From: Segetibacter sp. 3557_3
GTDB taxonomy: Bacteria; Bacteroidota; Bacteroidia; Chitinophagales; Chitinophagaceae
NCBI RefSeq assembly: GCF_004354985.1
Contig: NZ_SMSK01000023.1
Span: 1 to 64,000 of the forward strand
Direction: 5' to 3'
DNA: 64,000 nt
Positions 1-34,452 of the stretch are shown in pieces; the first letter of the stretch is position 1, and each line of letters opens with the position of its first letter. Below the pieces are notes generated by a model, which saw only the letters and a program-made list of their open reading frames with translations, was not told where the DNA came from and did no database searches. A program made the translations under genes and the position numbers.

Positions 1-666
1 ATTGAGGTGTATAATGGGGAGGGTGAGCGAACGTGGGCAGCGGAATACGACATCTATGGCCGGATCCGGACTCAGCTCGAGGGCAAAGCAGCAGATTGTC
101 CCTTCCGCTACCAGGGACAATACGAGGATGAAGAAACCGGGTTATATTACAACCGCTTTCGCTACTACTCCCCCGATGAAGGCATCTACCTCAGCCAGGA
201 CCCTATCGGGCTTGCAGGTGGGATGCAGTTGTATGGATATGTGAAGGATGTGAACAGTGGGGTGGACGTGTGGGGGTTGAGTGAGTGTGCAAGAGTCGAA
301 TATATCAACTTAAAAAATCTTCGTTGGACTCAACGAACTGCCGGCGGGCGGGGGCGAGCAGATGTAATGAGAGCAAGCATGAAAGTTAATGGATACAAAG
401 GTGACCCAATTGATGTAGTTGAAACACCCGTCGGACTTGTGACAGTTGATCATACTCGAGCTGCAGTCGCTCTCGAACTTGGCATCACCCAAATACCTGC
501 ACGAATTCATAAATTATCAGAGACCCTTCCATCAGAAATGGCCGGAAGGTTTGGAAATTCAAAAACATGGGGCGATGCGATAGCCTATCGGGCAAGCACA
601 CAAACGCCTCCACTACCTCCAACAGGAACCACAACTCCTCCAAAGCTTCCAAAACCCGTTATCTAA
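1..666 (+). CDS. RHS-repeat polymorphic toxin, C-terminal part (5' end outside window)
   Basis: The frame is open from base 1, so this is the 3' end of a larger gene. The first ~93 residues are the RHS-associated core that closes the RHS cage: a YDIYGR repeat remnant, then FRYQGQYEDEETGLYYNRFR and YLSQDPIGLAGG, ending near DVWGL. After this junction the sequence changes to a ~125-residue variable tip, which in this family is the toxin released inside a target cell. The tip contains GYKGDPIDVVET and VDHTRAAVALELGI followed by IPARIH. That pattern resembles the ParB/Srx-type fold (usually DGHHRLAAAxELG), so a nuclease- or NTPase-like activity is a guess from similarity by eye. It ends in a proline-rich tail. 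The next gene starts 1 base after the stop, as expected for a cognate immunity gene. RHS identity is firm; tip activity is not. Confidence 0.88.
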   Translation: MEVYNGEGERTWAAEYDIYGRIRTQLEGKAADCPFRYQGQYEDEETGLYYNRFRYYSPDEGIYLSQDPIGLAGGMQLYGYVKDVNSGVDVWGLSECARVEYINLKNLRWTQRTAGGRGRADVMRASMKVNGYKGDPIDVVETPVGLVTVDHTRAAVALELGITQIPARIHKLSETLPSEMAGRFGNSKTWGDAIAYRASTQTPPLPPTGTTTPPKLPKPVI

Positions 667-667
667 A

Positions 668-1030
668 ATGGTAAACAAACAGATAATCTTACCTAAAAGC
701 TACCACTGGATCATTAACAAACAACTAGTTGGGTTCAAAGCGTTTTCGCAACTTGAGCCTTGGTTTTTTCTTTTACCTGGCGATTGCTTTTGGGCGAATG
801 AAAAATGGAGTAACTCCTCCCAAGAAAAATTGTTTGTTTTTGCGAAGCGCCAGGATAATGATGATCTCGCATGTTTCAAAGTCTTGGAAAACGGAGTTGT
901 AGAGTCCGTTTATTTGATCCATGGTTGGACGTCAAGCGGGTTTGATATAATTGAGCGATTTGATAGTTTATGGGGATGGCTTCAACTTGTGGTAAAGGAT
1001 ATTGAAGAATGGATTGCAGAACTTGACTAG
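668..1030 (+). CDS. probable immunity protein for the upstream RHS toxin tip
   Basis: This 120-residue acidic, tryptophan-rich cytoplasmic protein starts at an ATG one base after the toxin stop codon, so the two are probably translationally coupled. It has no signal peptide or membrane segment. Features include PWFFLLPGDCFWANEKW, FAKRQDNDDLACFKV, and a C-terminal FDSLWGWLQLVVKDIEEWI helix. The pattern of a central strand region ending in an acidic DDxACF and a terminal helix ending in EEW recalls SUKH (SMI1/KNR4) immunity proteins, but I assign that only tentatively. Position directly after an RHS tip is the main argument for function: immunity genes protect the producer from its own toxin. 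It could instead be an unrelated small gene. Confidence 0.7.
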   Translation: MVNKQIILPKSYHWIINKQLVGFKAFSQLEPWFFLLPGDCFWANEKWSNSSQEKLFVFAKRQDNDDLACFKVLENGVVESVYLIHGWTSSGFDIIERFDSLWGWLQLVVKDIEEWIAELD

Positions 1031-1153
1031 ACTATGATCTTCCAGTCTTCATTGTTCGAGTGTATTCCTCGCAATGATCTCTAGATCAAAATGTTTCAAC
1101 CGTTCCAATACCCAATACCTCAATACCTAATTCAATCCGCAAATACGTCATAT

Positions 1154-1607
1154 GGCAATACCATCACCCAACTCCCGTCCCATCCGGTCATTCCAAAAAC
1201 TTCAACGCTTATATACATACTATAACGCACCGTAGTTTTGTCCTATCCAATTACCCTATAGCCTTTCTGAAAAACCATATCCAACTATCTAAAACCACAT
1301 GTTGCCTTTGCCGCTGAAAACCAATGGCAACCAAAACACAAAAGATTGATCCCGCCTAACCGCGGGATTTTTTTATTTACAACGGTAAGGCGCCAACCTT
1401 AGTCTCCTCGTAAGTATCTCAGGACATACGCATACGCAAATGCGTAATTCGACATCTGCAAATTGGATTACCCAATTAACTTCATTCAACCACCTCTGCG
1501 CATCCTCTCACTTCTCTGCGGTTCAATCTGCAAACCCACCAGTCCGCTCTCCCTTAATACCTCAATACCCAATACCTAAATACCTAACTCAATCCGCAAT
1601 CCGCGAA
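1154..1607 (+). repeat. 450-bp direct repeat, copy A
   Basis: This stretch is nearly identical to 1677-2128, at an offset of 520-521 bases. Only scattered substitutions and small indels separate the two. It begins at GGCAATACCA and runs past CAATCCGCAATCCGC. It contains no credible long reading frame. Its core (1233-1377) holds a promoter-like box, a hairpin and an intrinsic terminator and is listed separately. The copy is bordered by AATACC-type short repeats that may have served as the recombination substrate for the duplication. Confidence 0.95.
1233..1377 (+). ncRNA. candidate small RNA unit, copy 1
   Basis: The unit begins with TAGTTTTG, an exact TAnnTTTG -7 box. It continues with two tandem motifs (TATCCAATTA near 1244 and ATATCCAACTA near 1277, each followed by a purine-rich AAAACC-type stretch). 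Next comes a hairpin GTTGCC/GGCAAC (1301-1306 with 1326-1331) whose loop contains GCTGAAAACC. It ends in an intrinsic terminator: ATCCCGC (1349-1355), loop CTAACC, GCGGGAT (1362-1368), then a T-run. A transcript would be about 130 nt. Copy 2 is almost identical, and copy 3 near 4.8 kb on the other strand is diverged yet keeps every element. The tandem motifs could alternatively be operator half-sites for a regulator. Confidence 0.5.
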
Positions 1608-1676
1608 TCGTTTTCCCCCTTAATACCTCAGTACCCAATACCTCAATACCTCTCTCCACTCCGAAATACCTAATAC

Positions 1677-2128
1677 GGCAATACCACCCAACTCCCGTCC
1701 CATCCGGTCATTCCAAAAACTTCAACGCTCATATACACACTACAATGCACCGTAGTTTTGTCCTATCCAATTACCCTATAGCCTTTCTGAAAAACCATAT
1801 CCAACTATCTAAAACCACGTGTTGCCTTTGCCGCTGAAAACCAATGGCAACCAAAACACAAAAGATTGATCCCGCCTAACCGCGGGATTTTTTTATTTAC
1901 AACGGTAAGCCGCCAACCTGAGTCTCCTCGTAAGTATCTCAGGACATACGCATACGCACATGCGTAATTCGACATCTGCAAATTGGATTACCCAATTAAC
2001 TTCAATCAACCACCTCTGCGCATCCTCTCCTCTTCTCTGCGGTTCAATCTGCAAATCCACCAGTCCGCTCTCCCTTAATACCTCAATACCCAATACCTAA
2101 ATACCTAACTCAATCCGCAATCCGCAAT
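1677..2128 (+). repeat. 450-bp direct repeat, copy B
   Basis: Second copy of the block at 1154-1607. It retains the same internal order: promoter-like box, tandem motifs, hairpin, terminator, then a stretch rich in CACCTCTGCG and CTCTGCGGTTC. It ends in AATACC-type and AATCCGC-type short repeats that run on to about 2167. The high identity indicates a recent tandem duplication. Confidence 0.95.
1753..1897 (+). ncRNA. candidate small RNA unit, copy 2
   Basis: This copy differs from copy 1 at essentially one position in the 145-base core (CCACATG becomes CCACGTG). It keeps TAGTTTTG at 1753-1760, the GTTGCC/GGCAAC hairpin and the ATCCCGC/GCGGGAT terminator with its T-run (1869-1894). The A-to-G change destroys a possible ATG, which argues against a short peptide in that frame. 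Confidence 0.5.
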
Positions 2129-2170
2129 CCGCCATCCGCAAATCCGCCATCCGCAAATCTGCAATCATAA
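2062..2170. repeat. short-period AATACC / AATCCGC repeat tract
   Basis: Imperfect repeats of about 7-10 bases, first CAATACC-type units, then (C)AATCCGC and CCATCCGC units. Related AATACC tracts lie at 1088-1130, 1553-1600, 1617-1660 and 55846-55895. No coding potential is apparent. They behave like intergenic low-complexity filler that recurs around the duplicated block. Confidence 0.8.
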
Positions 2171-2304
2171 GACATCAAAATTGGTGGTTGCTGAAGGGTA
2201 TAAACTCATTCTCATTTTATAACTTGTATACCGTTTCACGGTAATCTTCAACTATGATCACCAGTTGGTAATGTGTGCTGGTATCGTGTATCAATCAACG
2301 ACAA

Positions 2305-4674
2305 ATGACAGCCGACGAAATACGACATGTTTGCATAGAAAGCGCAAAGGCTTACTACGAGTATCTTCAAGAGAACGAAAAAGGGATGCAACAGGTCGAT
2401 GTTTATGACTTACAATACTTACCCGATCCTGACGTCATAATCAAGCTTCGATTGTCAGCTAAGCTGTTTGATACCGAAACCATTAGTTTCAAGCTAAGCC
2501 ACGCTAATAAAACTTATGGTATTGGACCCATTAAGGTAATTGAGTACGACGGCGACAAAAACATCCTCGTTATAAAACCAGCGGAAGAGCTTAAAGCTGA
2601 ATTCGTTAATCTCAAAGCCAGAGATGTTAAGATCGTTTCTGACCTAAAGTTTCTTATAGAACGGGTAAAGAAGTGGTATGAGGTCAATGGTGCAGATCTG
2701 GCGCTACCTCAAAAAGCATCGAGGCTAAAAGAAAGCCTCGGCAATATCAAATACGTAGCAAAAAAACCATCTGCTGTTCAACAGGTTTCAATTAAAAATA
2801 TTTTCACCAACCCATTCTCATATGTATGGGGCGCGCCGGGAACAGGTAAAACGCAATTTGTTTTATCATACGCATTACTGCACTATTTAAGCCACAGCAA
2901 AAGAGTAGCTATTCTCGCACCAACCAATAATGCAATAGAACAGGTTTTGAGAGGAGTGCTCGAGATGTCAGATTTAGCAGGTATACAACGCACCAGGTTT
3001 CTGCGCCTCGGAACGCCGTCAAAAACGTTTGCTGAGGAATATCCAGAAGTCTGCGAAGAAAAAAGTACACAGCGTAAGCTGACCACATTAGATAAACAAA
3101 TCGGTATCGTTGAGCAAGCAATCAACCTGCTGACCCGGGTAAACCTGCTAAAACAAAGTACTTTTTACCTGTCTGAGATCGGCAAGCTCACTGTGCTTAA
3201 AAGTACGTTAGATATTATAAGCGAGAGGCTGGAAATCTCGGATGCTTATATCAGGGAAACAGAGCTTGAAATCAATAAAGTCGACAAAGAGCTCACAGCA
3301 ATTCAAAGACAAATTCAATACGTCGATCATTCGGGATGGTCGCTGATGAAAACAATTAAGCAGTTGTTTGCGCCGTCGCGTTACACCCGGATCCCACTAG
3401 CAACGCTAAAAATCGAATATCTTAATGTTACAACTAAAAAAGAGCAGTTAGATGAATATTTAAATAACGGGTATAACAACAAGCTACAGTTAGACATAGA
3501 GAAACAGGACATCCGGCAAGCAATAGATCAGAAATTGCAGGCTATTCAAGAGTATATAAGTCTGCTCATGGCAGGTGCCGATGTGATACCGGAGATGACC
3601 CTGGAAAACATAGCGCCAATAAAGCAACAACTACAGCGGTTTGTTAATCAAGAAGCAGCATCCATCGCGGCAGACCAACACATATATGCTGAATACCGCC
3701 ATTACACTGTTGAACAGCTAACGCAACAATTGGCAGATTTAAAGCAAACATACGATAGCATAAAGGAACTTTCTACCGAGGAGCGTATCAAATCAACCGA
3801 TGTAATTGCATGTACATTAGACGGTTATATTGGAAGGTTCCTGGATAAGAAACTAAAGGTGGATCACTTCTTTTTAGATGAAGCGGGGTATGCTAACATG
3901 ATAAAGGCGCTAACACTTTTTACCAACGACACTCCTGTAACGTTCCTGGGAGATCATAAACAATTGCCACCCGTTTGTGAGATAAATGACACAGACATAC
4001 AACAAAACGAAAAACTTCACAACACTTTTTTGTGGTCTCAGTCCGCTATTCACCTCGAGTCTGTATTTCTTAAAAATTTAGATGCAGTTAGAAATGAGTA
4101 CCTGCAAAATCAGCCTTGTACTCAAACCATCATGGTAAGGACGGCACTAAACTCAACTTTTCGTTTTGGACCTAATCTGGCTGCGGTACTCAGCAGGCAC
4201 GTTTATGAAAATGACTTTATTTCGCAAGCCGGAAAAGACCAAACCTCCATAAGCGTTATAGATGCAAAAAAACAAGAAGGTGCTAAAAGCAGGATAAGTA
4301 TCAATGAAGTTTACGCGATTAAAAAAATCACATCAGGATTAGATCACGACGACTATGTAATTCTTACCCCGTATTCCAAACAGTTGCAATTGCTGGGCGA
4401 ATACCTACCTGATGACCGTAGCAATCTCAGGATATTAACCGTGCACGGATCCCAGGGAAGGGAATGGCGAACCGTCATACTAAGTGTGGTAGATACCTAT
4501 GATAAATGGTTTGTAGACTCAACCTCGCCACGATCAAAGGGACTAAACCTGATTAATACGGCTGTTAGCCGAGCAAAAAAGGAGCTCATCATTGTTTGCG
4601 ATAAAGCTTACTGGAAGTATCAGCCAACACAGCTGATAACAGATTTATTAAAAACCGCTGAGCAGTATGCATAA
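2305..4674 (+). CDS. Upf1/DNA2-like superfamily 1 helicase with large coiled-coil insert
   Basis: This 789-residue cytoplasmic protein has the full set of SF1B helicase motifs. They are Walker A GAPGTGKT (about residue 180), motif Ia ILAPTNNAIEQ, Walker B FFLDEAG (about 525), motif III FLGDHKQLPP, an STFRFGP motif, motif V TVHGSQGREW and motif VI NTAVSRAKKELI. Between motif Ia and Walker B lies a helical, coiled-coil-rich insert of roughly 250 residues, as in other Upf1-like proteins. An upstream in-frame GTG at 2275 exists, but the ATG at 2305 (MTADEI) is the more natural start. The gene stands alone downstream of the RHS/duplication region, and its base composition looks more AT-rich than the ABC transporter that follows, which hints at acquisition. 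Unwinding of nucleic acid is expected; the specific role is unknown, and a defence function is possible but unsupported here. Confidence 0.85.
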   Translation: MTADEIRHVCIESAKAYYEYLQENEKGMQQVDVYDLQYLPDPDVIIKLRLSAKLFDTETISFKLSHANKTYGIGPIKVIEYDGDKNILVIKPAEELKAEFVNLKARDVKIVSDLKFLIERVKKWYEVNGADLALPQKASRLKESLGNIKYVAKKPSAVQQVSIKNIFTNPFSYVWGAPGTGKTQFVLSYALLHYLSHSKRVAILAPTNNAIEQVLRGVLEMSDLAGIQRTRFLRLGTPSKTFAEEYPEVCEEKSTQRKLTTLDKQIGIVEQAINLLTRVNLLKQSTFYLSEIGKLTVLKSTLDIISERLEISDAYIRETELEINKVDKELTAIQRQIQYVDHSGWSLMKTIKQLFAPSRYTRIPLATLKIEYLNVTTKKEQLDEYLNNGYNNKLQLDIEKQDIRQAIDQKLQAIQEYISLLMAGADVIPEMTLENIAPIKQQLQRFVNQEAASIAADQHIYAEYRHYTVEQLTQQLADLKQTYDSIKELSTEERIKSTDVIACTLDGYIGRFLDKKLKVDHFFLDEAGYANMIKALTLFTNDTPVTFLGDHKQLPPVCEINDTDIQQNEKLHNTFLWSQSAIHLESVFLKNLDAVRNEYLQNQPCTQTIMVRTALNSTFRFGPNLAAVLSRHVYENDFISQAGKDQTSISVIDAKKQEGAKSRISINEVYAIKKITSGLDHDDYVILTPYSKQLQLLGEYLPDDRSNLRILTVHGSQGREWRTVILSVVDTYDKWFVDSTSPRSKGLNLINTAVSRAKKELIIVCDKAYWKYQPTQLITDLLKTAEQYA

Positions 4675-4782
4675 GTACCTGACGGCCCCACCAAATTACA
4701 CTGCAGCAGTTTCTATCTGCAAACAAGAGACCAGGATCTAATCCGGGTTCCAATGCACGGCGAACGGTACCAGCTTCTATAA

Positions 4783-4927
4783 ACAAAAATCCCGCAGTTA
4801 CGCGGGACCAAGCTTTTTTCGTTTCGGTTGCTACCGGTTTTCAGCAGCAACATCAAAACAGTGGTTTTGAATAATTGGATATGGCTTTTCTAAAACGGCT
4901 AAAGAATAATTGGATGACACAAAATTA
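4783..4927 (-). ncRNA. candidate small RNA unit, copy 3 (diverged, reverse strand)
   Basis: Read leftward this 145-base block parallels copies 1 and 2 step by step. TAATTTTG (4927-4920) matches TAnnTTTG. Then come ATCCAATTATTC and TTAGCC, a second CCATATCCAATTATTC, and AAAACCAC. The hairpin is GTTGCT/AGCAAC (4851-4846 with 4832-4827), with the loop GCTGAAAACC kept. The terminator is TCCCGC, loop GTAACT, GCGGGA, followed directly by TTTTTG. The sixth hairpin pair is C-G in copies 1 and 2 but T-A here, a compensatory change. The terminator T-run lies on the minus strand, so it belongs to this unit and not to the helicase. Confidence 0.5.
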
Positions 4928-5149
4928 TGGTTGCTTGCTCCACTCGCACAACTGCTGAGGTTTTTGAAATAACCGGATGGGACGGGAGTTGGTTAAGGTG
5001 TACGAAAATGCGGTGTTCAGGTAAGGGATCCGCAAATGCCGGCTATAAAAACCCCAAACGAAAGGCGATCTTCGCAATAGTGAAGAAGCCAAAACACAGC
5101 CACTACGCCCGCCAACCGGAAATCAGGATCAAAGTTGCTAATTTCACAG

Positions 5150-7009
5150 ATGTCATTGTTTACGCGGTTATTTAAACGCACCACTACACCAATCACCAAT
5201 AATGAGCAGCTGTCTTTTAAAGATCGCCTTGCAGCACTCAGAAACCTTCCGGCTTTTTTTAAGCTTGTCTGGCAAACCAGCAAGTGGATGACGATTGTAA
5301 ATGCGCTCCTGCGGATTGTGCGCGCTGCCACCCCGCTTGCCATTTTATATGTTGGAAAACTCATTATTGATGAGGTGATTTCGCTGAGCCAAAACCCCGG
5401 GAGCGAGTCGCACCGCTATTTGTGGGAACTTCTTGCACTCGAGTTTGGACTTGCAATCGCATCCGACAGTCTTGCCCGCGCGATCACGCTGATGGATAGC
5501 CTGCTTGGCGACCTGTTTTCCAATCACTCCTCGATAAAGATCATGCGACATGCAGCCACCCTTGACCTCGACCAATTCGAGAATGCAGCATTTTACGACA
5601 AGCTGGAGCGGGCACGCCAACAGACCGTTGGGCGCACCATCCTGTTGTCGCAGGTGCTCGAGCAGGTGCAGGACCTCATTACAATGGGCTTCCTGGCTGC
5701 AGGGTTGCTGGTGTTTAATGTCTGGCTGATGGTACTGTTGCTGGTCGCAATCATTCCCGCCTTTTTGGGCGAAGCTTATTTCAACGACAAAACCTATGCA
5801 CTCAGTCGCCGGCAAACCCCCGAAAAACGCGAGCTGGATTATGTGCGCTTTCTCGGTGCCAGCGACGAAACCGCTAAGGAGATAAAGGTTTTTGACCTGT
5901 CCGATTTCCTGATCCGCCGCTTCAAGACGTTGTCGGGAAAATTTTACCAGGACAATAAAAGCCTTGCCATCCGGCGATCGGTATGGGGCGCATTGCTGGC
6001 AATGCTGGGTAGTGCCGGTTATTACGGTGCTTATGTATTCATCATCGTTCGCGCCGTAAGCGGAACCATCACCATCGGAGATCTTACTTTTTTGGCGGGT
6101 TCTTTCCGGCAATTACGTGGGCTGCTTGAAGGAGTCCTCATCCGGTTTACCAGTGTTTCCCAGGGAGCCGTTTACCTTAGCGACTTTTTTGAATTCTTCG
6201 AAATCAAACCAAAGATCGTTGCTGCTGAAAATCCATTGCCCTTTCCGCGACCGATCAAACAAGGTTTCACTTTCGAAAATGTTGGATTTAAATATACAAA
6301 TTCCGAGAAGTGGGCAAACCGGCATTTAAACTTCACCCTGCACCCTGGTGAAAAGATCGCACTCGTTGGCGAAAATGGTGCGGGCAAGACTACCCTGGTA
6401 AAGTTGCTCGCCCGGTTGTACGACCCCAGCGAGGGCAGGATACTGCTCGATGGCAAGGACCTTCGCGAATACAACCTTGAACAGCTACGGTTAAACATCG
6501 GCATCATTTTCCAGGATTATCTCCGGTTCCAGATGACAGCCTCGCAGAATATTGCCGTCGGTAATATTGCCGAACAGAACAACCGGCCCGAAATCGTGAG
6601 TGCTGCTAAACAAAGCCTTGCACATCCATTGATTGAAACCCTTCATGAAAAATATGATCAAATGCTTGGTCGGCGCTTTAAACAAGGGGTAGACCTTTCG
6701 GGCGGTGAGTGGCAAAAAATTGCCCTTGCACGCGCTTACCTTCGCGACGCCCAGCTGCTTATCCTCGACGAACCTACTGCCGCGCTTGATGCACGTGCAG
6801 AGTTTGAAGTGTTTCAACGGTTTGCCGAACTTACCAGGGGAAAAACCGCCGTGCTCATCTCGCACCGGTTCTCAACAGTGCGTATGGCCGATCGTATCCT
6901 GGTGCTGGAGAAAGGCCAGCTGATCGAACTGGGAAGTCATGAAGACTTGCTGGAACTTGACGGACGCTATGCGGAACTGTTTCATTTGCAGGCGGCCGGA
7001 TACCGTTAA
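5150..7009 (+). CDS. ABC exporter, fused membrane and ATPase domains
   Basis: This 619-residue half-transporter belongs to the type IV exporter (MsbA/multidrug-like) class. Residues ~30-330 form the transmembrane domain, with hydrophobic helices around TIVNALLRIV, FLAAGLLVFNVWLMVLLLV and YYGAYVFIIV. The ATPase domain carries Walker A GENGAGKTT, Q-loop IIFQDY, signature LSGGEWQKIALARAY, Walker B LLILDEPTAALD and H-loop ISHRF. All catalytic residues are intact. As a half-transporter it should act as a homodimer in the inner membrane. I chose the ATG at 5150 (MSLFTRLFKR) over an in-frame TTG at 5135. Substrate cannot be told: lipid, peptide or drug are all possible. No partner gene is adjacent. 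Confidence 0.9.
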   Translation: MSLFTRLFKRTTTPITNNEQLSFKDRLAALRNLPAFFKLVWQTSKWMTIVNALLRIVRAATPLAILYVGKLIIDEVISLSQNPGSESHRYLWELLALEFGLAIASDSLARAITLMDSLLGDLFSNHSSIKIMRHAATLDLDQFENAAFYDKLERARQQTVGRTILLSQVLEQVQDLITMGFLAAGLLVFNVWLMVLLLVAIIPAFLGEAYFNDKTYALSRRQTPEKRELDYVRFLGASDETAKEIKVFDLSDFLIRRFKTLSGKFYQDNKSLAIRRSVWGALLAMLGSAGYYGAYVFIIVRAVSGTITIGDLTFLAGSFRQLRGLLEGVLIRFTSVSQGAVYLSDFFEFFEIKPKIVAAENPLPFPRPIKQGFTFENVGFKYTNSEKWANRHLNFTLHPGEKIALVGENGAGKTTLVKLLARLYDPSEGRILLDGKDLREYNLEQLRLNIGIIFQDYLRFQMTASQNIAVGNIAEQNNRPEIVSAAKQSLAHPLIETLHEKYDQMLGRRFKQGVDLSGGEWQKIALARAYLRDAQLLILDEPTAALDARAEFEVFQRFAELTRGKTAVLISHRFSTVRMADRILVLEKGQLIELGSHEDLLELDGRYAELFHLQAAGYR

Positions 7010-23900: not shown

Positions 23901-23995
23901 TATCCTGGTTTAGCCACTCCTATCCAACTATCCGAAAAACCTTTTTTTTGCATACGCTGTACGTTTGTACAGCGTGTGTAGAAAAACAATTCTAC
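23901..23995 (+). promoter_or_regulatory. fourth tandem-motif module followed by hairpins
   Basis: TATCC, TTTAGCC, TATCCAACTATCC and AAAACC in order (23901-23941) echo the tandem motifs of the candidate RNA units at 1.2, 1.8 and 4.9 kb. It is followed by a perfect 9-bp stem ACGCTGTAC/GTACAGCGT (23954-23975) and a 6-bp stem GTAGAA/TTCTAC (23978-23995). No T-run follows, so it is not an intrinsic terminator. It could be an operator or a decayed member of the same family. Confidence 0.35.
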
Positions 23996-33815: not shown

Positions 33816-34418
33816 TTATGGTTGTTTTATTTCGAGTAATTCGAGGTAATAACCATTGCGAAGCTGAATGATTATGGGTAGCTCCCGTGAGTCGTAAACT
33901 GAAATAAGTTCTTCGCCGGTGCTGATGTACTTTCCAGCCAATTTAACAACGGGCTTAATCCTGAGTGTTTTTAGATCAGTAACTTGTCCGTTCAGCTTTA
34001 CCTGTACCTTACTGCTTTCAACCGTTCTCACTAAAGTTTCCACCCCCTGTTTTAACTGCAACTTAAATGGTTTACGATTCCGTTTGCCGGCGCTACGGTA
34101 AGTATTTGTAGACAGGATCAAACTGCTGGTATTATCATTCATCGAAAGATCTCCAGGTACGAAAGCTGCATTTAAAAAGTTAGCGGAGCGGCTGCCCTGT
34201 TCGGTGTGTTGAATACTGCCGGTTGCATTTGCCGAGTCGATGATACGCCATTGATAGGCAAACGGACTTACCGATTTTACAACTACCTCAACGTCGAAAT
34301 GACGATCACTTACATCCATCCGGTACAGTAGGGTTGTGCCGGCCTTTATAACCGCAGGTTGCTGTGCATTGGAGATTGCAGCGCTGTAAATGAGAAGGAG
34401 GAGTAAAAAACATTTCAT
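33816..34418 (-). CDS. secreted hypothetical protein
   Basis: The 200-residue protein has a clear signal peptide (FLLLLLIYSAAISNAQ). The mature part is beta-rich, with TLLYRMDVSDRHFDVEVVVKSV and SLILSTNTYRSAG, then basic FKLQLKQGVETLVR and an ending ELPIIIQLRNGYYLELLEI. No lipobox is present, so it should be periplasmic or secreted. I do not recognise the family. Its stop codon is 14 bases from that of phhB (convergent) and it lies 34 bases downstream of selD on the same strand, so it may be the last gene of the selU-selD transcript. Function unknown. Confidence 0.75.
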   Translation of the reverse strand: MKCFLLLLLIYSAAISNAQQPAVIKAGTTLLYRMDVSDRHFDVEVVVKSVSPFAYQWRIIDSANATGSIQHTEQGSRSANFLNAAFVPGDLSMNDNTSSLILSTNTYRSAGKRNRKPFKLQLKQGVETLVRTVESSKVQVKLNGQVTDLKTLRIKPVVKLAGKYISTGEELISVYDSRELPIIIQLRNGYYLELLEIKQP

Positions 34419-34452
34419 ATGAATTGGTTTTTCAGGAACATGGATGGATAAC

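Follow-up and report, generated by a model that had tools for sequence, protein, structure and literature searches.

Repeated blocks in a Segetibacter genome resemble genes for array RNAs complementary to the 5′ end of another small RNA

What is encoded by three similar blocks of DNA, two on one strand and one on the other, that lie near one end of a contig of Segetibacter sp. 3557_3 (NZ_SMSK01000023.1; the window analysed is the whole stretch of 64,000 nucleotides)? A preliminary description, based on the sequence alone, proposed that they are related transcription units for a structured RNA of about 130 nt belonging to no recognised family, with a tandem operator for a MocR/GntR-type regulator as the alternative. 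Alignment of the three blocks confirmed that they are copies of one unit of about 135 nt, with the elements in the same order apart from a few 1-nt gaps, each with a TAnnTTTG box and an intrinsic terminator. Copies 1 and 2 belong to a 300-bp repeat, 520 bp apart and 97% identical, whereas copy 3 is 75% identical over 205 bp (BLAST E = 6e-31 against copy 1), far above chance. The change of a C-G pair to T-A in the hairpin (TTGCC../GGCAA to TTGCT../AGCAA) is real. A terminator scan found all three terminators on the right strand, among 7 terminator-like sites in positions 1000-5200 against 4.2 on average in shuffled sequences; a scan for sigma-70-type promoters, which does not cover the Bacteroidota box, found none at the units. 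Two features can be added to the preliminary description: conservation extends about 65 bp upstream of the box (CGTCCCATCCGGTYA, 57 bp before TAnnTTTG), and the ATCCAA motif is one half of a longer repeat that also contains GAAAACC. The features of the three copies are listed in the table.

Table. Coordinates of the array units and their features within the window; antiseed sites are stretches predicted to pair with the small RNA B described in the text.
Coordinates	Strand	Copy	Feature	Remarks
1233-1377	+	1	Block	
1176-1190	+	1	Upstream element CGTCCCATCCGGTCA	Genus consensus TGTCCGATTCGGRCA; putative activator site, 57 bp before the -7 box
1233-1240	+	1	-7 box TAGTTTTG	Apparently the Bacteroidota TAnnTTTG box
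1241-1376	+	1	Array RNA (C15a)	About 130 nt, non-coding; no ORF of 50 aa or more inside
1244-1277	+	1	Antiseed site 1	Pairs with both ends of the B seed; -19.7 kcal/mol with the GGAUAUUGGAU form of B
1278-1297	+	1	Antiseed site 2	-14.5 kcal/mol
1304-1323	+	1	Antiseed site 3	In the hairpin and its loop; -12.6 kcal/mol
1348-1369	+	1	Intrinsic terminator	
1753-1897	+	2	Block	
1696-1710	+	2	Upstream element	
1753-1760	+	2	-7 box TAGTTTTG	
1761-1896	+	2	Array RNA (C15b)	Overlapped only by a 58-aa ORF of the automatic list (1805-1981, minus strand)
1764-1797	+	2	Antiseed site	
1798-1817	+	2	Antiseed site	
1824-1843	+	2	Antiseed site	
1868-1889	+	2	Intrinsic terminator	
4783-4927	-	3	Block	
4970-4984	-	3	Upstream element CGTCCCATCCGGTTA	
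4920-4927	-	3	-7 box TAATTTTG	
4784-4919	-	3	Array RNA (C15c)	Diverged
4915-4882	-	3	Antiseed site	
4881-4862	-	3	Antiseed site	
4858-4835	-	3	Antiseed site	
4788-4809	-	3	Intrinsic terminator	

The comparative evidence supports the interpretation of the blocks as a structured, multicopy RNA with its own promoter-like box and terminator. This genome has seven such units, and units were found in 7 of 10 genomes of the genus (Segetibacter, by record titles), several of them at shared gene sites: after trmD in five genomes, after an M42-type peptidase gene in two and after an HTTM-like gene in two (gene names assigned by eye). The hairpin and the terminator covary. In an alignment of 22 distinct rows that was fitted to the structure, 14 of 16 pairs had changed on both sides, 81.5% were paired against 35-51% for slid partners, and 0 of 500 shuffles reached the score; a MAFFT alignment gave 80.5% and 0 of 500. 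Some measures of covariation did not beat the shuffles, namely further pair types (377 of 500) and two-sided pairs (38 of 500) in the MAFFT alignment and further pair types (41 of 500) in the fitted one. The upstream element lies 57 bp before the box in 15 of 17 genus units, 58 bp in one unit (G006a) and 49 bp in another (G004c) with the box that was chosen, although TAATTTTA lies at 56. A strict search for the element in this genome found nothing; its own copies deviate from it. No Rfam family was matched near a gathering score, the best hit being 23.4 bits against a cut-off of 50.

The 5′ part of the unit, in which the preliminary description saw neither the antiseed repeats nor a partner RNA, is a series of imperfect repeats AUCCAAU-n-CUGAAAAACC. 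When the genus was searched for this pattern, 68 hits were obtained in 10 genomes against 7 for the reversed pattern, and 40 of the 68 were one 22-mer in two one-base variants that, on the other strand, is the 5′ end of a second RNA family, here called B. Family B is about 60 nt long, with inferred transcript ends, and consists of a near-invariant 22-nt 5′ end GGUUUUUCAUAG(A/G)AUAUUGGAU followed by a terminator hairpin. It is present in 186 of 294 genomes of the bacterial family Chitinophagaceae (reversed-pattern control 0), but its seed with up to one mismatch is absent from 381 genomes outside that family in a sample of the phylum. The terminator of B covaries, with 6 of 10 pairs changed on both sides and 0 of 500 shuffles reaching the score in an alignment of 24 of 55 distinct sequences chosen for variety, although further pair types were reached by 58 of 500 shuffles. 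B loci had no Rfam match up to E = 1 that reached a gathering score. Five B genes, one with a mismatch, are encoded elsewhere in this genome. The 5′ end of B is the reverse complement of the repeat of the array RNAs.

A prediction that was written down beforehand held for the gap length but not for the bases within the gap: arrays in two genomes outside the genus (G253 and G239) have AUCC-N3-GAAAAACC, and GGTTTTTCATAGGAT recurs there while the exact main Segetibacter form is not in the list, but the three bases in the gap had been predicted to be of UUA or UUC types and were found to be AUA, so those sites leave an internal loop. A gap of 3 was found in 39 of 115 sites elsewhere and 1 of 20 in Segetibacter (p = 0.007), and gaps of 6-9 in 23 of 115 and 13 of 20, respectively (p = 1e-4); the sites are not independent, units C15b, C34a and C34b were left out as near-duplicates of C15a, and for the other genera whole fetched stretches rather than transcripts were counted. 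The array pattern had a mean of 0.96 hits in the 186 B-positive genomes (control 0.10) and 0.19 in the 108 B-negative genomes (control 0.14; p = 2.6e-9, not corrected for phylogeny), but in three of the 10 genus genomes (G005, G007 and G009) that have B, no array unit was found. A duplex scan found 78 sites in 19 units against 27.0 and 33.1 in shuffles, a result that is partly circular because B was found with the repeat itself, and in single units (C33b, G008, G239, G253) the site count is not always outside the shuffles. Duplexes in the window copies range from -12.6 to -19.7 kcal/mol; the best duplexes of copies 1 and 2 are with the GGAUAUUGGAU form of B, of which this genome has one copy, whereas with the commoner form their best is -15.0. 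B alone is predicted to fold its 5′ end weakly, so the seed may not be fully single-stranded.

The explanation that is favored, with reasonable though far from complete confidence and without experimental evidence of expression, pairing in cells or the direction of regulation, is that each block is a gene for a small non-coding RNA made of tandem imperfect antiseeds, followed by a hairpin that shows one more antiseed in its loop and by a terminator, and that this array RNA is a multi-site sponge, or target mimic, of B. When the array RNA is made, its sites may pair with the two ends of the 5′ end of B, leaving a bulge or internal loop in the middle, and keep B from its mRNA targets. By analogy with the FopS RNAs of Bacteroides, B probably blocks translation near start codons, as its antiseed contains AUGAAAAACC; however, among 36 gene starts in the window only 3 stood out as possible targets (at 5/100 or better), about what chance gives. 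The palindrome-like element at a near-constant distance before the box suggests that the array RNAs are switched on by one regulator.

Bacterial sponges are known. The CrfA RNA of Caulobacter crescentus antagonizes the four sibling sRNAs SisA-D by pairing with the conserved single-stranded core that they share (PMC12559287), but CrfA is shown pairing through one site (G49-C63, in its second stem loop), whereas each RNA described here has three to more than ten antiseed copies in tandem, in several paralogous genes, in an unrelated phylum and with unrelated sequence. No tandem-array sponge was found in a limited set of literature searches, no paper on sRNAs of Chitinophagaceae was recognised by title or beginning of abstract in two word searches, and the B seed as a string was absent from the papers searched, which exclude most subscription journals. 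The closest counterpart of B is the FopS family of Bacteroides thetaiotaomicron (PMC11697453), which likewise comprises multicopy short sRNAs with a conserved 5′ seed followed by a terminator hairpin, and which pairs near start codons; FopS is antagonized by the protein RbpB, while antagonism of B by array RNAs is proposed here.

Among the alternatives, the most probable, although it is considered unlikely, is that the arrays are regulated targets of B rather than decoys, B pairing with the many sites to destroy or activate the array RNA; in some genera the array would be a leader that makes a small GHKL-like protein sensitive to B, and the stand-alone RNAs of Segetibacter would act in another way. 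Indeed, in 4 of 15 fetched clusters (genomes G201, G235, G292 and G083) the array directly precedes the gene of a conserved protein of 140-161 aa, beside ahcY (named by eye) in two of them. On the other hand, 8 of the 15 clusters have a box, a terminator and no ORF by eye, the Segetibacter units that were folded end in a terminator, and multiple degenerate sites are probably more than translational control needs. It is less likely still that the repeats bind and titrate an RNA-binding protein, as CsrB/RsmZ or CrcZ probably do, with the complementarity to B being secondary. The G-poor, largely unstructured 5′ part, the repeated short motifs, the activator-like element upstream and the several paralogues per genome would fit, but the transcripts are 12-19% G with repeats of AUCC and GAAAAACC rather than the GGA motif expected of CsrB/RsmZ, the repeat is the reverse complement of a near-invariant RNA 5′ end, gap lengths follow the B sequence between genera, and arrays track the presence of B.

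A mobile or REP-like DNA repeat without function as RNA is very doubtful. Tandem pairs at two places in this genome are embedded in similar low-complexity repeats, sites differ between species, and the trmD site is empty in G005, G007 and G009; yet the shared sites at trmD and two other genes, the compensatory changes and the near-constant promoter spacing argue against it, albeit without a search for terminal repeats and transposases. The operator for a MocR/GntR-type regulator is not supported and is the least likely of these possibilities. ATCCAA is repeated within each unit, but the repeats lie downstream of the box, vary in number from about 2 to over 10, recur in a hairpin loop and are complementary to another RNA, and no gene for such a regulator was recognised nearby, whether by Pfam analysis of six ORFs of the window (SF1 helicase, ABC transporter, DinB and two ORFs without a match) or, at the other sites, by eye.

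It is possible, although somewhat less likely than not, that Chitinophagaceae run a two-part RNA circuit composed of the near-invariant multicopy B and a large, fast-evolving set of tandem antiseed arrays, some of them stand-alone sponges with up to about a dozen sites and some of them 5′ leaders of a conserved small protein. In this reading, the centrally bulged sites copy the translation start regions that B represses, and the circuit would be a bacterial counterpart, terminator-ended and without Argonaute, of the multi-site microRNA sponges and plant target mimics of eukaryotes, in which tandem, centrally bulged sites for a small RNA seed seem to be used similarly.

Of the weak hits outside the genus in two searches for array units (R1 and R2), the part that was inspected showed gene ends or coding sequence without the repeats, except in G239 and G253. 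A scan of genome contigs gave 96 stretches, and of the likely ones selected by a motif filter three were array units; a scan of viral contigs with a loose pattern returned 120 stretches. B was not found in the plasmid or phage collections, but one viral contig holds a B gene.

The three blocks of the preliminary description, which had been presented as three related units on two strands, exist as described. Copies 1 and 2 belong to a 300-bp repeat 520 bp apart and 97% identical, while copy 3, on the other strand, is 75% identical over 205 bp (E = 6e-31). Each block has a TAnnTTTG box, which probably corresponds to the Bacteroidota -7 consensus, a hairpin, and a terminator on the right strand. 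No ORF of 50 aa or more lies inside the blocks, although one 58-aa minus-strand ORF overlaps copy 2. The C-G to T-A change that had been noted in the hairpin of the third copy is real.

In this genome (6.75 Mb, 35 contigs), BLAST identified a second tandem pair on contig C34 and a diverged unit on contig C33; a further unit on C33, which follows trmD, was accepted on the basis of its site and a model score of 37.8 bits, for a total of seven. Low-complexity stretches built of CAATACC/AATACCTA and CAATCCG units surround both tandem pairs of array genes and may have carried the duplications. Within the genus, units were found in seven of ten genomes (designated G000, G001, G002, G003, G004, G006 and G008) and none were found in G005, G007 or G009. 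Of 26 trmD loci examined, the gene end could be placed in 21; by inspection, five of these have a unit in the next 480 bp (G000, G003, G004, G006, G008) and 16 do not, among them G005, G007 and G009. Two more sites are shared, one after an M42-type peptidase (C33 of this genome and G006) and one after an HTTM-like membrane protein (G004 and G001), these gene names having been assigned by inspection. The coordinates of features in the window, on other contigs and in fetched sequence stretches (designated by L numbers) are listed in the table.

Coordinates of array units, candidate pairing sites and associated features
Sequence	Coordinates	Strand	Feature	Remarks
Window	7-666		RHS-like ORF near the window start, followed by a 120-aa ORF	identified by inspection; neither has a Pfam match
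Window	1086-2165		low-complexity stretch around a tandem pair of array genes
L029	about 2440-3500		low-complexity stretch around a tandem pair of array genes
Contig C33	about 143.2 kb		diverged array unit
Contig C33	about 92.1 kb		array unit following trmD
Window	23922-23941	+	isolated, near-complete antiseed
Window	34396-34440	-	start region of a 200-aa ORF (33819-34418)	ORF has no Pfam match
L520	169-624		gene of the 140-161 aa protein family preceded by an array
L518	1576-2004		gene of the 140-161 aa protein family preceded by an array
L517	196-681		gene of the 140-161 aa protein family preceded by an array
L519	1282-1704		gene of the 140-161 aa protein family preceded by an array
L516	5815-5836		B gene on an IMG/VR contig

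On a MAFFT alignment of 13 units, the hairpin and terminator pairs are 80.5% standard, against 38-52% with slid partners; none of 500 shuffles reached the covariation score, but the count of pairs with two-sided change was reached by 38 of 500 and that of pair types by 377 of 500. After a model search, the alignment has 22 distinct rows, in which 14 of 16 pairs have changes on both sides and 81.5% are paired, with 0 of 500 shuffles for these measures and 41 of 500 for pair types; this second alignment, however, is fitted to the structure. The units of G001 and G008, the trmD unit of this genome and three further matches in L181 were not used to build the model.

All 17 genus units that were compared have a palindrome-like element with the consensus TGTCCGATTCGGRCA (8 to 12 of the first 12 positions match), which starts 57 bp before the box in 15 units, 58 bp before it in G006a (a unit of G006), and 49 bp before it in G004c (a unit of G004) with the box chosen there. 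G239 and G253, two genomes outside Segetibacter that also contain arrays, lack the element. The RNAs are G-poor (12-19% G). By inspection, the 5′ part consists of repeats AUCCAAU-n-CUGAAAAACC, about two to five in Segetibacter, and the hairpin holds another repeat with GAAAACC in the loop.

When the pattern ATCCAAN{2,10}GAAAAACC was searched in the ten genus genomes, it gave 68 hits, against 7 for a reversed-pattern control. By manual count, 40 of the 68 are ATCCAATAT(T/C)CTATGAAAAACC, present in all ten genomes, including those without array units. Read on the other strand, this sequence is the start of a different RNA gene, here called B, which consists of a -7-like box, then GGUUUUUCAUAG(A/G)AUAUUGGAU, an A/U stretch and a terminator hairpin. 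Across 24 chosen B sequences, 21 of the 22 seed positions never vary (the sequences were collected by that seed), while the terminator changes with compensation in 6 of 10 pairs (0 of 500 shuffles). With at most one mismatch, the seed is found in 186 of 294 genomes of the family, representing 68 of 101 genera, with one to eleven copies each and no control hit. In a phylum sample it is found in 11 of 395 genomes; by manual count, 14 of the 395 belong to this family, and all 11 hits are among them. This genome has five copies, one with a mismatch, and one 236-kb IMG/VR contig carries a B gene with terminator. B has no Rfam match at a gathering score, and its seed was found in no paper of the literature collection searched. 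Folding predicts weak pairing within the 5′ end of B.

Arrays in G253 and G239 use AUCC-N3-GAAAAACC. If arrays pair with B, one would expect the B of those genomes to have GGAU three bases after GGUUUUUC; this prediction, with UUA or UUC types as the middle bases, was recorded before the search was made. The search found GGTTTTTCATAGGAT recurring in G253, G203 and G239, and its list contained no exact copy of the main Segetibacter form GGTTTTTCATAGAATATTGGAT. The predicted gap was right but the middle bases (AUA) were not, so those array sites leave a 3-nt internal loop; moreover, GGATATTGGAT also allows the long gap, and Segetibacter genomes carry that form too. The gap counts agree: a gap of 3 nt occurs in 39 of 115 sites outside Segetibacter and 1 of 20 inside (p = 0.007), and gaps of 6-9 nt occur in 23 of 115 and 13 of 20, respectively (p = 1e-4), although the sites are not independent.

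G253 has four array genes in a row; three TACATTTG boxes are in the stretch that was inspected, with about 300-350 nt and many repeats each. G239 has at least three array loci. In arrays of three genera (L181, L502, L503), a possible helix GAAGUUGAUUGAU / AUCARUCAACUUC, noted by inspection, encloses the first repeats. A stricter two-repeat pattern hits 150 of 394 family genomes; by manual count, 46 have a control hit. In the 294 genomes with both kinds of data, the mean is 0.96 hits where B is present (186 genomes; control 0.10) and 0.19 hits where it is absent (108 genomes; control 0.14), with two or more hits in 44 of 186 against 2 of 108. This comparison is not corrected for shared ancestry or genome size, though the control hits do not rise with B, and the pattern undercounts, because the array units of this genome are not hit by it (0 hits). 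Of 15 clusters that were fetched, by inspection eight have a box and a terminator and no ORF, four are leaders, and three are unclear.

In the four leaders (G201, G235, G292 and G083), the array runs up to a gene for a conserved GHKL-like protein of 140-161 aa. Two of these proteins align with E = 4e-18, the other three share 42, 22 and 24% identity with the first, and Pfam gives only sub-threshold HATPase_c for two (searched as open frames). In G201 and G292, the next gene is ahcY, named by inspection. Arrays can therefore also be cis elements.

Each of the window copies has three sites predicted to pair with B. The best site, with -19.7 kcal/mol in copies 1 and 2 (with the GGAUAUUGGAU form, of which this genome has one copy; -15.0 with the commoner form) and -17.5 kcal/mol in copy 3, pairs both ends of the B seed with bulges on the array side. 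Over 19 units, 78 sites at -9 kcal/mol or better were found, against 27.0 when the arrays were shuffled and 33.1 when the seed was shuffled; in several single units (C33b, a unit on contig C33, and those of G008, G239 and G253), 5 or more of 60 shuffles of one kind reached the count. Because B was found with the repeat, this number is partly circular, and the gap test and the co-occurrence are the stronger evidence.

B looks like FopS of Bacteroides, whose 5′ seed blocks start regions of susC-type mRNAs (PMC11697453). The antiseed contains AUGAAAAACC, so array sites resemble translation starts that B could cover, and a dedicated RNA that offers many such sites would probably act as a sponge, as CrfA does with one site for SisA-D (PMC12559287). 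The central bulge may protect the duplex from cleavage, but this is speculation. The main rival explanation is the reverse direction, in which B controls the arrays, and it is plausible for the leaders. As a non-coding RNA and a probable sponge (transcription, pairing in cells and direction of regulation are inferred), the system is ordinary in kind, but it is apparently new in architecture and in both RNA families. The preliminary description of a real multicopy structured RNA was right as far as sequence can tell.

Among 36 gene starts in the window, the best for pairing with B is the start region of a 200-aa ORF with CTGAAAAACCAATTCATATGAAA, for which 0 of 100 shuffles were as good; this gene may be an mRNA target, but one such among 36 may be chance. 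An isolated, near-complete antiseed, ATCCAACTATCCGAAAAACC (-20.3 kcal/mol with B), is located about 370-450 bp before an aminotransferase gene.
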